A stretch of 64,000 nucleotides of DNA from Brevibacillus ruminantium. GTDB lineage: Bacteria > Bacillota > Bacilli > Brevibacillales > Brevibacillaceae. Shown here one piece after another: positions 18,849 to 63,035 of this stretch (the stretch's first letter is position 1; each line of letters starts with the position of its first letter). The stretch covers positions 508,501-572,500 of the forward strand of contig NZ_CP098755.1 of NCBI RefSeq assembly GCF_023746555.1, in the 5' to 3' direction. The notes below the pieces were generated by a model. It did no database searches, had not been told where the DNA came from, and saw only the letters and a list, made by a program, of their open reading frames with translations. Both the position numbers and the translations under genes were made by a program.

Positions 18849-19877
18849 ATGACGAACATCAAGCTGGATTCGCCATTTCAATTCAAGGGATTGACACTGA
18901 AAAACCGCATTGTCATGCCTCCGATGTGCCAGTATTCCGTCGAAGCCAAGGACGGCGTGCCGAACGATTGGCATTTTGTTCACTACGTATCCCGGGCCGT
19001 AGGCGGAGCGGGTCTGATCATTATGGAAATGACGGATGTCCACCCGGATGGCCGGATTACCGATTATGATCTGGGATTGTGGTCGGATGAGCAGATTCCC
19101 GCATTCGCCTGGATCATCTCCGAAGTACATAAATACGGGGCGAAAATCGGCATCCAGATCGCCCACGCCGGACGCAAGGCCCAGGATGCCGAGGTCCCGG
19201 TCGCACCGTCTGCGCTCCCTTTTAATGAGAAGTTCAAGACGCCGCGCGAGCTGACGACCGCAGAAGTAAAAGAGATGGTGGAAAGGTTCCGCGACACAGC
19301 ACGCCGGGCAGTGGAAGCAGGGGTGGATACCATCGAGCTGCACGGAGCGCACGGCTACCTGATTCATCAGTTTCATTCTCCGCTGACCAACAGACGCGAG
19401 GATGAGTACGGACAAGACCCGGCGCTGTTCGGGATTGAAGTGATCCAGGCGGTGAAAAGCGTATTGCCGCCAGAGATGCCGCTGATTATGCGCGTATCAG
19501 CCGTAGAGTATGTGGACGGAGGCTACGGGCTGGACTACAGCACGGAGCTGTGCCGCCGTTATCAGGAAGCTGGCGTCGATCTCTTCCATATCACCAGCGG
19601 CGGAGAGGGGCCCATCGGTTCTGCAGGCAAACCCGGCATTCATCCCGGCTATCAGGTGCCGATGGCTCGCGCGATCAAGGAAGCGTTGAATGTTCCTGTC
19701 ATCGCGGTCGGCATTCTGGATGATCCGCATCTGGCAGCAGCCACGCTGGGGAATGGAGATGCCGATCTGGTCGCGATCGGGCGCGCTATGCTCCGCGATC
19801 CTTACTGGGCGCTTCATGCAATCAAAAGTCTCCGAGGGGAGCCAGCCGTTCCGAAGCAGTACGAGCGCGCTTTTTGA
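18849..19877 (+). CDS. namA: NADPH dehydrogenase, old yellow enzyme family (NamA/YqjM-type)
   Basis: FMN enzyme that reduces activated C=C bonds and quinone-like electrophiles with NADPH. 342 residues, close to B. subtilis YqjM (338). Visible family features: redox-tuning Cys in MPPMCQYS (about 27), substrate-binding His pair region HGAHGYLIHQF, HAGRKAQ, and phosphate-binding VGILDDP/IGRAMLRDP near the C-terminus. This is the thermophilic-like/YqjM subclass, where that Cys replaces Thr. The binding site before the ATG is weak (GGAG at about 12 nt). It is a single-gene unit. Confidence 0.93.
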   Translation: MTNIKLDSPFQFKGLTLKNRIVMPPMCQYSVEAKDGVPNDWHFVHYVSRAVGGAGLIIMEMTDVHPDGRITDYDLGLWSDEQIPAFAWIISEVHKYGAKIGIQIAHAGRKAQDAEVPVAPSALPFNEKFKTPRELTTAEVKEMVERFRDTARRAVEAGVDTIELHGAHGYLIHQFHSPLTNRREDEYGQDPALFGIEVIQAVKSVLPPEMPLIMRVSAVEYVDGGYGLDYSTELCRRYQEAGVDLFHITSGGEGPIGSAGKPGIHPGYQVPMARAIKEALNVPVIAVGILDDPHLAAATLGNGDADLVAIGRAMLRDPYWALHAIKSLRGEPAVPKQYERAF

Positions 19878-19986
19878 TTGAATTTTGATAGAAACAATAG
19901 ATCATACATCCGTTGTAATTGCCCGTGTGAGCAAAGTTCCTTGCTTGCGCGGGCTTTTTTTACGTTTGGGAGCGGGGCTGTGGTGG

Positions 19987-20182
19987 AGAAGCATGTTTCC
20001 CTGCTCAGCTCCGTATTCCGCCCGCAAGGGGGGTATACACTGTCCGCTCCAGGGCGATTCGCGGGGGAGACGCAAAAGCCGCATCGCTCCGAGGTCATCC
20101 CAAAGTTGCGCTCCTTTTTCCCGCGAATCACCCCTCCGCTGAGCAAGGGCTCCACAGTCGCACCGCAGGGAAACATGCTTCT
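19987..20182. repeat. Structured inverted-repeat element, copy 1
   Basis: About 195 bp bounded by a perfect 17-bp inverted repeat, GAAGCATGTTTCCCTGC (19988-20004) with GCAGGGAAACATGCTTC (20165-20181). Inside are nested stems TGCTCAGC/GCTGAGCA (20002-20009 with 20138-20145) and GATTCGCGGG/CCCGCGAATC (20056-20065 with 20120-20129). A second copy in opposite orientation lies at 20509-20709 with clear but diverged similarity along its whole length. No transposase and no convincing coding capacity. Could be a MITE or a structured-RNA repeat. Confidence 0.8.
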
Positions 20183-20190
20183 TCGCGATA

Positions 20191-20508
20191 CCGGTGCTGA
20201 TAAAAGAATTGTGGGTGAATCGATGATGAAAAGCAAAGATAGAAACAAAGATAGACTACACAGATCAAAAACGTTGAAAGTAATATTATGATACAACGTT
20301 GATCGGTTAAGTTCTTGGCTCTTTCACAGATGAAAATTAAATGATTTCTAATTCAATGAAATGTAAAAAATGGATGTAACGTTTCTTTAGTGTTTGATCT
20401 GCTGACCGAAAGGCACTAGGTTTTTTAAACAAAATTAATTTGTTTTTTTAGCGCTTGGTATTACCTTCTTTTTTCATCATTAAGATTCCGCGGAGAAGCA
20501 AATGTCCG
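20191..20508. other. AT-rich spacer between the two repeat copies
   Basis: About 320 bp with no supported gene. It is clearly more AT-rich than its surroundings and contains only short frames without binding sites. I see no terminator or operator worth naming. Confidence 0.5.
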
Positions 20509-20709
20509 GAGAAGAATCATGGTTCCCTGCGGTGCGACTGTGAAGCCCCACTCAGCGGAGCAGTGGATGGCGGGAAAAAGGGACGCAACCTTGGGATGAC
20601 CACGAAGCGCTACTGCTTTTGCGGACCCCCGCCAGCCGCTGTGGAGCGGACAGTGAACCCTCCCTTGCGGGCGGAGTACGGAGCCAAGCAGGGAACCATG
20701 ATTCTTCTC
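20509..20709. repeat. Structured inverted-repeat element, copy 2 (opposite orientation)
   Basis: About 200 bp bounded by a 22-bp perfect inverted repeat (20509-20530 with 20688-20709; core GAATCATGGTTCCCTGC). Reverse-complemented, it aligns with copy 1 end to end. The two differences in the outer 17 bases (G/T and T/G) are both mirrored in the opposite arm. The inner stem is GGATGGCGGG (20565-20574) with CCCGCCAGCC (20628-20637), again changed in matched fashion relative to copy 1 (one mismatch). Confidence 0.8.
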
Positions 20710-20756
20710 GCTATGGCCACGTAGCACGTTACCCAAGCATGGAAACTACCACAAAG

Positions 20757-20785
20757 TTGACAGATAACGTTTCTCTTCCTATAAT
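20757..20785 (+). promoter_or_regulatory. Perfect-consensus sigma-A promoter of the DUF2325 gene
   Basis: TTGACA (20757-20762), exactly 17 nt, TATAAT (20780-20785). The leader then has a small hairpin AACCT-G-CTGA / TCAG-G-AGGTT (20825-20848) before the ribosome-binding site. Confidence 0.85.
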
Positions 20786-20873
20786 TAAACAAAAACCTAT
20801 CTAAATACTCGGTATTAAAAAGATAACCTGCTGAAGCATCAGGAGGTTTCCTGTACAAGGAGGGGAGAAGCTA

Positions 20874-21143
20874 ATGTCAGCCGTTCTGGTTATTGGAGGA
20901 GACCGTTTAGGCAATATCACCGATCTGCTGCATGATCGAGGTTATCAGCAAATTTACCATGTCACGGGGAGAAAGCATTCGCAATACAAAGTGAACATCC
21001 CGTCAGACACAAAAATGATCGTAGTGTTTACCGACTTCGTCAATCACAATCTGTCCTATCACGTCAAAAGTCAGGCCAAAGCGAAAAAGCTCCCCATCCT
21101 CTTCTGTAGAAGGTCGTTTACGATGATGGAGAAGATGCTGTAG
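20874..21143 (+). CDS. DUF2325 domain protein
   Basis: 89-residue protein that is essentially one DUF2325 domain: MSAVLVIGGDRLGNI at the start, ITGRK-like VTGRKHSQYK, and the conserved VVFTDFVNHNLSYHV. Such proteins occur alone or fused to other domains in Firmicutes; no biochemical role is established that I know of. AAGGAGGGGAG precedes the ATG, and the promoter is perfect consensus, so it may be expressed strongly. A terminator follows 24 nt after the stop. Confidence 0.9.
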   Translation: MSAVLVIGGDRLGNITDLLHDRGYQQIYHVTGRKHSQYKVNIPSDTKMIVVFTDFVNHNLSYHVKSQAKAKKLPILFCRRSFTMMEKML

Positions 21144-23021: not shown

Positions 23022-23053
23022 AACCGACCCTATCAGGAAGATTAGGGTCGGTT
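23022..23053 (-). promoter_or_regulatory. Terminator-like hairpin in the chemoreceptor leader
   Basis: Perfect 11-bp stem: minus-strand AACCGACCCTA, 10-nt loop, TAGGGTCGGTT, followed by TTGATTTT. No minus-strand gene lies upstream that it could end, while a promoter-like sequence does, so it sits in the 5' leader of the chemoreceptor gene as a possible attenuator. Confidence 0.5.
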
Positions 23054-23445
23054 GCACTACTTACTCCCCGCCATTCAAGTGCCCACGTACAAACGGCAGA
23101 TCATCGTTTCCTCAATGATGTGTATAGGTATATTCTCAATGTGAAGGGAAATTATGGGTATCGCTCTCTCTTATAATATAAACATTTTCTAATGGCTTGT
23201 CCACAGGGCGGGGGATGAAATCATCAGATCGTCAATTTCTGCTTCCATTTCGTGGTAGAATAAGCATGGTTGCTATCCGAATGGCCTTTCCCGCTTGTTT
23301 CGCAGTAAATCTCCTCGGGTCGTTCGCAGATTTTCCATTCGAATGATTCAAAAGAATGTATCAAAAAAGGAGAAAAAGCACAATGAAACCATACGAAAAT
23401 AGCCTCGGCTGTGATAATCTCGGCGAGAAAAAGAGGGGGAATCCC
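23054..23445. other. Intergenic control region between chemoreceptor and GNAT gene
   Basis: Non-coding as far as I can see. It holds a minus-strand promoter candidate TGGACA-17-TATATT (23175-23203) and a weak hairpin ATCATTG/CGATGAT near 23110 in the chemoreceptor leader. Toward the GNAT gene there is an alternative ATG at 23383 behind AAAGGAG that opens in frame with the GNAT protein. Confidence 0.5.
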
Positions 23446-45232: not shown

Positions 45233-45387
45233 AAAAAAACAAAGCCTTCTCCTGAGAGGGAAGGCTTCGGTCATACCGCGCGGTTTCATCTCTCAGAATC
45301 AATGATTCTGCAGGATTTGGCACCAAGCGTATCAAAAACGCAGGTTGCCGGGTTTCATTGGGCCTGTCCCTCCACCACTCTTGATGA
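45233..45387 (-). promoter_or_regulatory. SAM-I riboswitch with terminator, controls metY
   Basis: Minus strand reads ATCAAGAGTGGTGGAGGGA, then GGCCCAATGAAACCCGGCAA, GGTGCCAAATCCTGCAGA and TGAGAGATGA, the conserved S-box blocks in order. The expression platform is GAAGCCTTCCCTC / GGAGAAGGCTTT followed by seven T (45233-45267). SAM binding would favour the terminator. Confidence 0.96.
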
Positions 45388-45424
45388 AATGTTTGAAATT
45401 TTCGTATAGCGTTTCTTATCTGCT

Positions 45425-62798: not shown

Positions 62799-62854
62799 CC
62801 AATTTGTATCAAGACGGTACATTTCTATTAATTGAATCTAACGTAGATATTCTT

Positions 62855-63035
62855 CTTATCCAGAGAGGCGGAGGGAAAGGCCCTATGAAGCCCGGCAACC
62901 GGCTCATCGATCATTCGATGGGTGGCGCGGTGCCAATTCCTACAAGATGTAGATCTTGTACAGATGAGAAGGGTGGATGCGATCGTATATTACGGTGCAG
63001 CCCCTTTTTCGTATAGGAAAAAGGGGTTTTTATTT
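62855..63035 (+). promoter_or_regulatory. SAM-I riboswitch with terminator, controls metN
   Basis: Order CTTATCCAGAGAGGCGGAGG, GGCCCTATGAAGCCCGGCAA, GGTGCCAATTCC, ACAGATGAGAAGG is the S-box core. The variable stem P3 (CCGGCTCATCGATC...) and the P4 (TACAAGATGT/AGATCTTGTA) are visible. Expression platform: CCCCTTTTTC / GAAAAAGGGG then TTTTTATTTT (63001-63035). Confidence 0.96.

Follow-up and report, generated by a model that had tools for sequence, protein, structure and literature searches.

A strongly constrained giant-hairpin repeat of the REP/BIME kind in Brevibacillus ruminantium

Introduction

Folded repeats in bacterial genomes are usually short and lineage-specific, and binding of gyrase, IHF or Pol I is a trait ascribed to REP/BIME sequences. 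In Gammaproteobacteria, REP/BIME are described as intergenic palindromic units of 20-40 nt that form inverted pairs and alternating tandem arrays, with mutations that keep the palindrome and inter-unit segments that are non-homologous (PMC2817692). A stem-loop repeat of Bacillota, bcr1, is described as measuring 147-167 bp (PMC2267715).

The present study concerns a pair of inverted hairpins in a 64,000-nucleotide stretch of the Brevibacillus ruminantium genome, henceforth referred to as the window. The family to which this pair belongs shares with REP/BIME intergenic palindromes, inverted pairs, tandem arrays, palindrome-keeping changes and non-homologous segments between units, and differs from their 20-40 nt units in its unit length of ~200 nt, branched fold and conserved unpaired blocks. 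It further departs from REP/BIME in showing a strand lean of mismatches and no link to a RAYT gene. Like bcr1-type families, it is intergenic, repeated, folded and of a similar size range; judged by description, inverted pairing and occurrence in several genera with wholly changed stems set it apart from bcr1. Stem covariation and conserved unpaired blocks are also features of the structured RNAs of Rfam 15, but no Rfam 15 family matched the element at gathering score, and only three sub-threshold matches (E up to 5) were returned. No paper on such a repeat family in this group was found in the open-licence PMC literature.

Results

Structure of the window pair

The original prediction described two inverted copies of about 200 bp that match end to end, and alignment bears this out: copy 1 (unit A) and copy 2 (unit B) align over their whole length in opposite orientation (Table 1). 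Two mirrored substitutions proposed for the outer stem (GAAGCATGTTTCCC vs GAATCATGGTTCCC) are present, and the inner stem differs between the copies as described, in the alignment as well as in the folds. G-U-type changes, to which the keeping of the middle stem had been ascribed, are not the main means by which stems are kept, as G-U cells are rare (8/1630) in the alignment of genus copies described below. Folded as RNA in a common orientation, copy 1 reaches a z of -6.25 and copy 2 of -5.17, with 0 of 200 shuffles as good, and both copies beat shuffles on either strand. A covariance model, R1, recovered 19984-20186 at 210.7 bits and 20509-20708 at 217.6 bits, and no third place in the 64-kb window.

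Table 1 Features of the window pair and its surroundings (positions are those of the window).
Feature	Position	Strand	Details
Intrinsic terminator of upstream gene (ORF 18849-19877)	19921..19961	+	14-pair stem and T tract; context, outside element
Outer flank of unit A	19968..19985	+	GGGAGCGGGGCTGTGGTG; kept among copies (flank alignment and listing)
Hairpin unit A (copy 1), ~200 nt	19985..20184	+	Perfect outer arms 19987-20004/20165-20182; inner arms 20052-20065/20120-20133
Conserved blocks of unit A	20039-20050; 20150-20161	+	ACTGTCCGCTCC; CTCCACAGTCGC
Inner flank of unit A	20185..20233	+	Kept among this genome's copies
Spacer	20185..20508	.	AT-rich, 324 bp, 33% G+C
Inner flank of unit B	20469..20508	-	Kept among this genome's copies
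Hairpin unit B (copy 2), inverted relative to A	20509..20709	-	Perfect outer arms 20509-20530/20688-20709
Outer flank of unit B	20710..20728	-	CGTGCTACGTGGCCATAGC on the minus strand; kept among B copies
Promoter of next gene (ORF 20874-21143)	20757..20785	+	TTGACA-17-TATAAT, 12/12 consensus match

Copies and pairs in the genome

After merging of BLAST matches (40 candidates scored per query), 55 copies (25 A and 30 B) were identified in the 5.6 Mb genome (G000). They fall into two subfamilies, with ~90% likeness within a subfamily and 81% between A and B. Above a cut-off of 130 bits the covariance model recovers 56 places; its 112 matches do not represent 112 elements because the palindrome also matches on the other strand, at 30-42 bits. 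Forty-six copies form 23 pairs, always in the layout A→...←B, and the window pair is one of these. Nine copies have no partner in the BLAST list. The model contributes a further full place (1226691) as well as shorter ones, including 1010878 and 1535643, which lie where the A partner of an unpaired B is expected.

The spacers of the 23 pairs range from 31 to 2421 bp and their middle is unrelated in most. Three carry transposase genes (G000:C1:1486294-1488632, 3835967-3838387 and 443075-443505), which we take to be an IS200/IS605-like tnpA/tnpB pair, an ISL3-like transposase and a transposase fragment; a Y1 match at 1486704 lies within the first. The spacers act as landing places for insertion sequences. 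Separately, the outer 40-95 bp of unit B is tandemly repeated beside full copies at L237 3420-3595 and in the flanks of B443506 and B4635199, a pattern that points to slippage or recurrent partial copying.

Orientation follows the replication arm in all 23 pairs and, apart from 1352309 and 4579303, in every copy (53 of 55). With 149 of 170 scored genes co-oriented with replication, the corresponding p values are 0.048 (23/23) and 0.027, and replication-linked insertion was rejected as an explanation, being inseparable from gene direction. The same orientation, the BIME-like layout and the lack of observed duplications would suit a REP-associated Y1 transposase (RAYT) that moves the ends on single-stranded lagging-strand DNA. 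We consider this very improbable, as the orientation is largely explained by gene direction, the units are inverted and ~200 nt, unlike REPs, and 10 of 26 genus genomes, several of them hairpin-rich, gave no match to Y1_Tnp (PF01797). These include G010, G012, G013, G014 and G022, each with 18 to 31 model matches among the matches listed, counts that other-strand matches of the palindrome can inflate as in G000. Such genomes do not support RAYT as the mover.

The terminus region (2.05-3.23 Mb, 1.18 Mb) holds zero full-length copies (p 0.023 under random placement), which is suggestive only of a real pattern.

Distribution across genomes

Using stricter filters and with up to 31 matches scored per genome, model R1 matched 35 of 79 genomes, belonging to 7 of 42 genera: 25 of 26 in the genus (own genome included), 9 of 13 in the rest of the family and 1 of 40 outside the family. 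Together with the 55 copies in G000, this distribution agrees with the REP- or MITE-like repeat that had been proposed. BLAST with copy 1 detected 25 of 60 genomes, namely the own genome, 23 of the 25 others of the genus and G028, which belongs to another genus. Many A→←B pairs, 46-62 bp apart, were found in G062 (another genus), and G033 contains one pair, whose 278-bp spacer is AT-rich. No match was obtained in plasmids, or in phages with queries other than copy 1, and a pattern scan of genome contigs returned two metagenome matches that look unrelated.

Brevis-like genomes carry A and, ~70 bp on, a second hairpin, "C". C hairpins were rejected as B homologues: their conserved blocks look alike, but R1 scores are weak, with 24.5 bits (E 1.5e-4) in G009, a partial match (E 0.0028) in G023 and no match at E up to 1 in G006, G019, G011 and G024.

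Covariation and rates of change

Model R1 was built from an alignment (A3) of 39 genus copies; of 41 aligned at first, two were left out, their coordinates having been displaced by contig ends. Double changes occur in 22 of the 46 pairs in A3. A second alignment (A4) drew its 38 matches from outside the genus, where they came from seven genomes. Being fitted to the structure of the model and including one reverse-strand reading of L361, a hairpin already in the set, A4 yields counts that lean towards the structure: 93.5% of cells pair, both-side changes are seen in 41 of 46 pairs, covariation amounts to 469 cells vs 133 in shuffles, none of 500 shuffles reaches any of five measures, and the score is 0.686 vs at most 0.132 for slid structures. 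Covariation, whose absence would have spoken against the original prediction, is far above background. Stem letters vary widely across genera, the outer arms of L332 sharing little with those of the window, and the unpaired blocks are conserved across genera.

Most elements in 400-kb stretches of G006, G012 and G014 lie at common sites. At orthologous sites of these three sister genomes, 3 of 286 outer-arm positions differ (1.0%, 8 genome pairs) when site s5 is omitted as a divergent subtype, and 7 of 322 (2.2%, 9 genome pairs) when it is added. The other parts of the element differ at 3.2% (inner arms), 8.3% (apical part) and 10.1% (small-hairpin region). Comparison rates from one neighbouring gene are 20.6-21.9% at 4-fold sites and ~1% at codon positions 1+2. 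A structure-based count, for which the structure was derived from the same sequences, gave 2.7% and 3.0% at paired sites and 10.5% and 11.4% at unpaired sites.

These rates bear on the possibility of a plain MITE, meaning leftover transposon ends devoid of host function, with arms matched only via recent spread or template switching. Repeated, intergenic copies with an AT-rich middle and similar outer ends, and the presence of other insertion sequences in three spacers, are what a MITE would display. However, at fixed sites the arms change about ten- to twentyfold more slowly than 4-fold sites, which template switching alone should not produce, and both the unpaired blocks conserved across genera and the lack of any target-site duplication or encoded transposase seen for the composite count against it as well. 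Because the outer arms are far slower than 4-fold sites, the hairpins are not dead transposon ends, and we regard a plain MITE as quite unlikely. That the paired changes reflect selection for a fold, as originally predicted, is well supported both by covariation across genera and by the slow change of stems where sites are orthologous.

Concerted evolution of all copies was rejected, orthologous copies being 93.5% and 93.0% identical vs 81-87% between sites. Some copies group across sites in trees, yet orthologues are more alike, so exchange occurs without homogenising the copies.

Mobility and loss

A 1975-bp element, bounded by inverted ends of 16 bp, is present in seven near-identical copies in G011 and in one copy in G025. 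Its transposase belongs to the IS1182 family (in G011 by a Pfam match and NCBIfam NF033551, E 5.4e-114). All eight copies were examined in full; in each, hairpin A precedes the transposase gene, at a distance of 97 bp from the element's left end. A diverged copy of an IS1182-family element in G028, another genus, also has the hairpin. The IS1182-family carriers (L227-L235; G011, G028 and G025) are inserted in terminator-like palindromes; IS1272, a member of the same family, is likewise reported to sit in terminator-like hairpins (PMC4923244). Short matching flanks were observed at several ends of L227-L235.

Given this location, the hairpin could be a regular component of the IS1182-family leader, and the chromosomal pairs could be what remains of such elements. 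We consider this very improbable, since the leader recurs without the hairpin in a related G006 element (84% aa), none was found in G004, and no close relative of that transposase was found in G000 (best fragment 49 aa) despite its 55 hairpin copies. The G006 relative implies that the hairpin was gained or lost in the IS1182-family element, and IS1182 as the hairpin's origin is not supported, given this relative and the lack of a close transposase relative in G000. Only the G011, G025 and G028 carriers encode an IS1182 transposase between IS1182-type ends. Unlike the IS1182 family, the pairs have no transposase; in the window pair its absence had been correctly predicted, and IS1182 ends are missing there too.

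Tandem arrays were found in G008 (three pairs), G006 (four A-C units), G019 (two) and G009 (A-A-A-C). Past movement is indicated by these arrays and, in two genera, by the presence of the hairpin within an IS1182-family element. The outer ends of copies are similar inverted motifs. Transposon ends with target-site duplications, and a transposase elsewhere, were the outcome that the original prediction had set against a selected fold; no composite with such terminal inverted repeats or duplications was found, whereas the transposase part is partially realised through the IS1182 link. No target-site duplication of the composite was seen, with ends that are not fixed precisely without a clean empty site. 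Nor was a recent insertion of the composite into an empty site seen in the three 400-kb stretches, where sites of the brevis-like clade are mostly common.

At three sites the element is present in only part of the genomes, the rest having other sequence there; one of these sites has a stub consistent with hairpin loss. At the window's own site, all that is left of B in G008 is an 18-base remnant; G024 bears a different large hairpin there. Comparison of G006:C1:563340-564130 with G014:C1:578250-578680 reveals an A hairpin in G014 and, in G006, only its outer edges GTGGGGGAGAAGC/TTCTTAAG together with a small ORF that resembles an acetyltransferase, which looks like loss of the whole hairpin. 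At G014:C1:386325-392818, 6.5 kb with ABC transporter genes occupies the place of the G006/G012 element, with breaks near the element's ends.

Neighbouring genes

The terminator of the upstream gene directly precedes the element (Table 1). A script detected terminators reading towards the element on the A side in 11 of 25 cases and on the B side in 4 of 30. By ORF scoring, the best-scoring ORF on the A side runs towards A in all 23 pairs, a tally that includes two low-scoring ORFs and one at a distance of 1035 bp. On the B side it points away from B in 19 of 23 pairs; the window pair's minus-strand ORF there is a scoring artefact, ORF 20874-21143 lying on the plus strand. In other genera the 3' end of the nearest scored ORF faces the hairpin at 23 of 30 loci (hand count).

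An AT-rich spacer of ~320 bp and a promoter after copy 2 had both been reported with the original prediction. The spacer stands as described, but the promoter belongs to the next gene and not to the element, because the same gene in G008 has a similar promoter and leader where the element survives as a remnant only. The leader of this small ORF (20786-20873) contains blocks AACAAAAACCTAT...ATACTCGG that are kept in G008 and G024, has no Rfam match, and could be a cis-regulatory leader not yet filed; in G022 and G010 the leader ends in a hairpin near GACTAGACCACTAGAGGTTTTT. Riboswitches above Rfam thresholds in the window are two SAM and one cyclic di-GMP-II (45283-45390, minus strand; 62853-62970, plus strand; 23037-23120, minus strand).

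Strand and molecule

On the A-orientation strand, column events A·C : G·U number 20:4 in the own genome (A 12:2, B 8:2) and 55:28 in the other genus genomes (p 0.004), or 75:32 for the genus in total. An A·C here corresponds to a G·U on the opposite strand, so the latter (outward) strand appears to be wobble-tolerant in both inverted partners, and since A and B are opposite in orientation, replication-strand mutational bias cannot yield the same lean in both. The outward strand also folds lower (-102.5 vs -95.1; -104.4 vs -95.8) and has more purine at unpaired positions (57.8%). Near-even ratios were obtained for brevis-like C (10:11), the G022 group (2:2), the G009 group (6:5) and other genera (29:36), and an earlier, smaller brevis-like A set leaned the opposite way (8 G·U : 4 A·C cells). 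For real RNA of these genomes, G·U : A·C is 21:0 in tRNA and 22:0 or 6:1, depending on fold setting, in the SAM riboswitch; the hairpins' G·U share is far below the 6.2% of tRNA. The sequences support, with moderate confidence, a strand-specific fold of the outward strand, for which RNA would be the simplest carrier.

Alternatively, the element may act at the DNA level, as cruciforms or single-stranded DNA hairpins that would be bound by a topology or nucleoid protein at transcription-unit ends, as has been reported of E. coli BIMEs with gyrase and IHF. We know of no protein that binds the hairpins. Inverted pairing and alternating tandem arrays are BIME architecture (PMC2817692); DNA folding is good for both copies (z -6.62 and -6.20), placement beside gene 3' ends fits, and so do the scarcity of G·U relative to tRNA and the about equal frequency of A·C outside the genus. 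A symmetric cruciform should lack strand preference, however, and the genus total leans to A·C. A pure DNA cruciform is weakened by this lean in both sets of genus genomes, and we consider a DNA-level element rather unlikely.

Discussion

The pair is a real, strongly constrained giant-hairpin repeat of the REP/BIME kind and possibly a structured RNA family of its own; its function we infer as follows. The window element is one copy of a BIME-like composite, in which two inverted ~200-nt hairpin units surround an AT-rich spacer beside a gene 3' end. The unit would have spread as a non-autonomous passenger, through tandem duplication, inter-copy exchange and capture by insertion sequences, and would afterwards have been retained by selection on its fold. 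Less firmly, the selected feature may be the fold of one strand per unit, reading outward from the spacer, most likely as a structured RNA that would arise from outward or read-through transcription and act where neighbouring transcripts end. The outward strand could instead serve as single-stranded DNA, and the 46-bp spacers of G062, with little room for two divergent promoters, count against outward RNA. We tentatively favour this account of a BIME-like composite that spread as a passenger and was then selected for its fold, with the outward strand and probably RNA at transcript ends as its weaker parts.

A more far-reaching description, which we see as possible but doubtful, is a new large structured RNA family of divergent, outward-reading inverted pairs, present in dozens per genome across a bacterial family and combining the roles of mobile passenger and selected gene-end part. 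The interpretation given in the original prediction is partly supported overall. Beyond it lie the recurring A→...←B unit, the A-side genes that end towards A, and the passenger within IS1182-family elements elsewhere.

The unit is ten times the length of a REP, and its intricate shape has been kept over several genera, with nearly all stem letters replaced, and at fixed sites. It thereby offers a test case for the old question of whether folded repeats are tolerated passengers or working parts, and its many natural variants make the strand, the molecule (RNA or DNA) and the partner protein directly testable.
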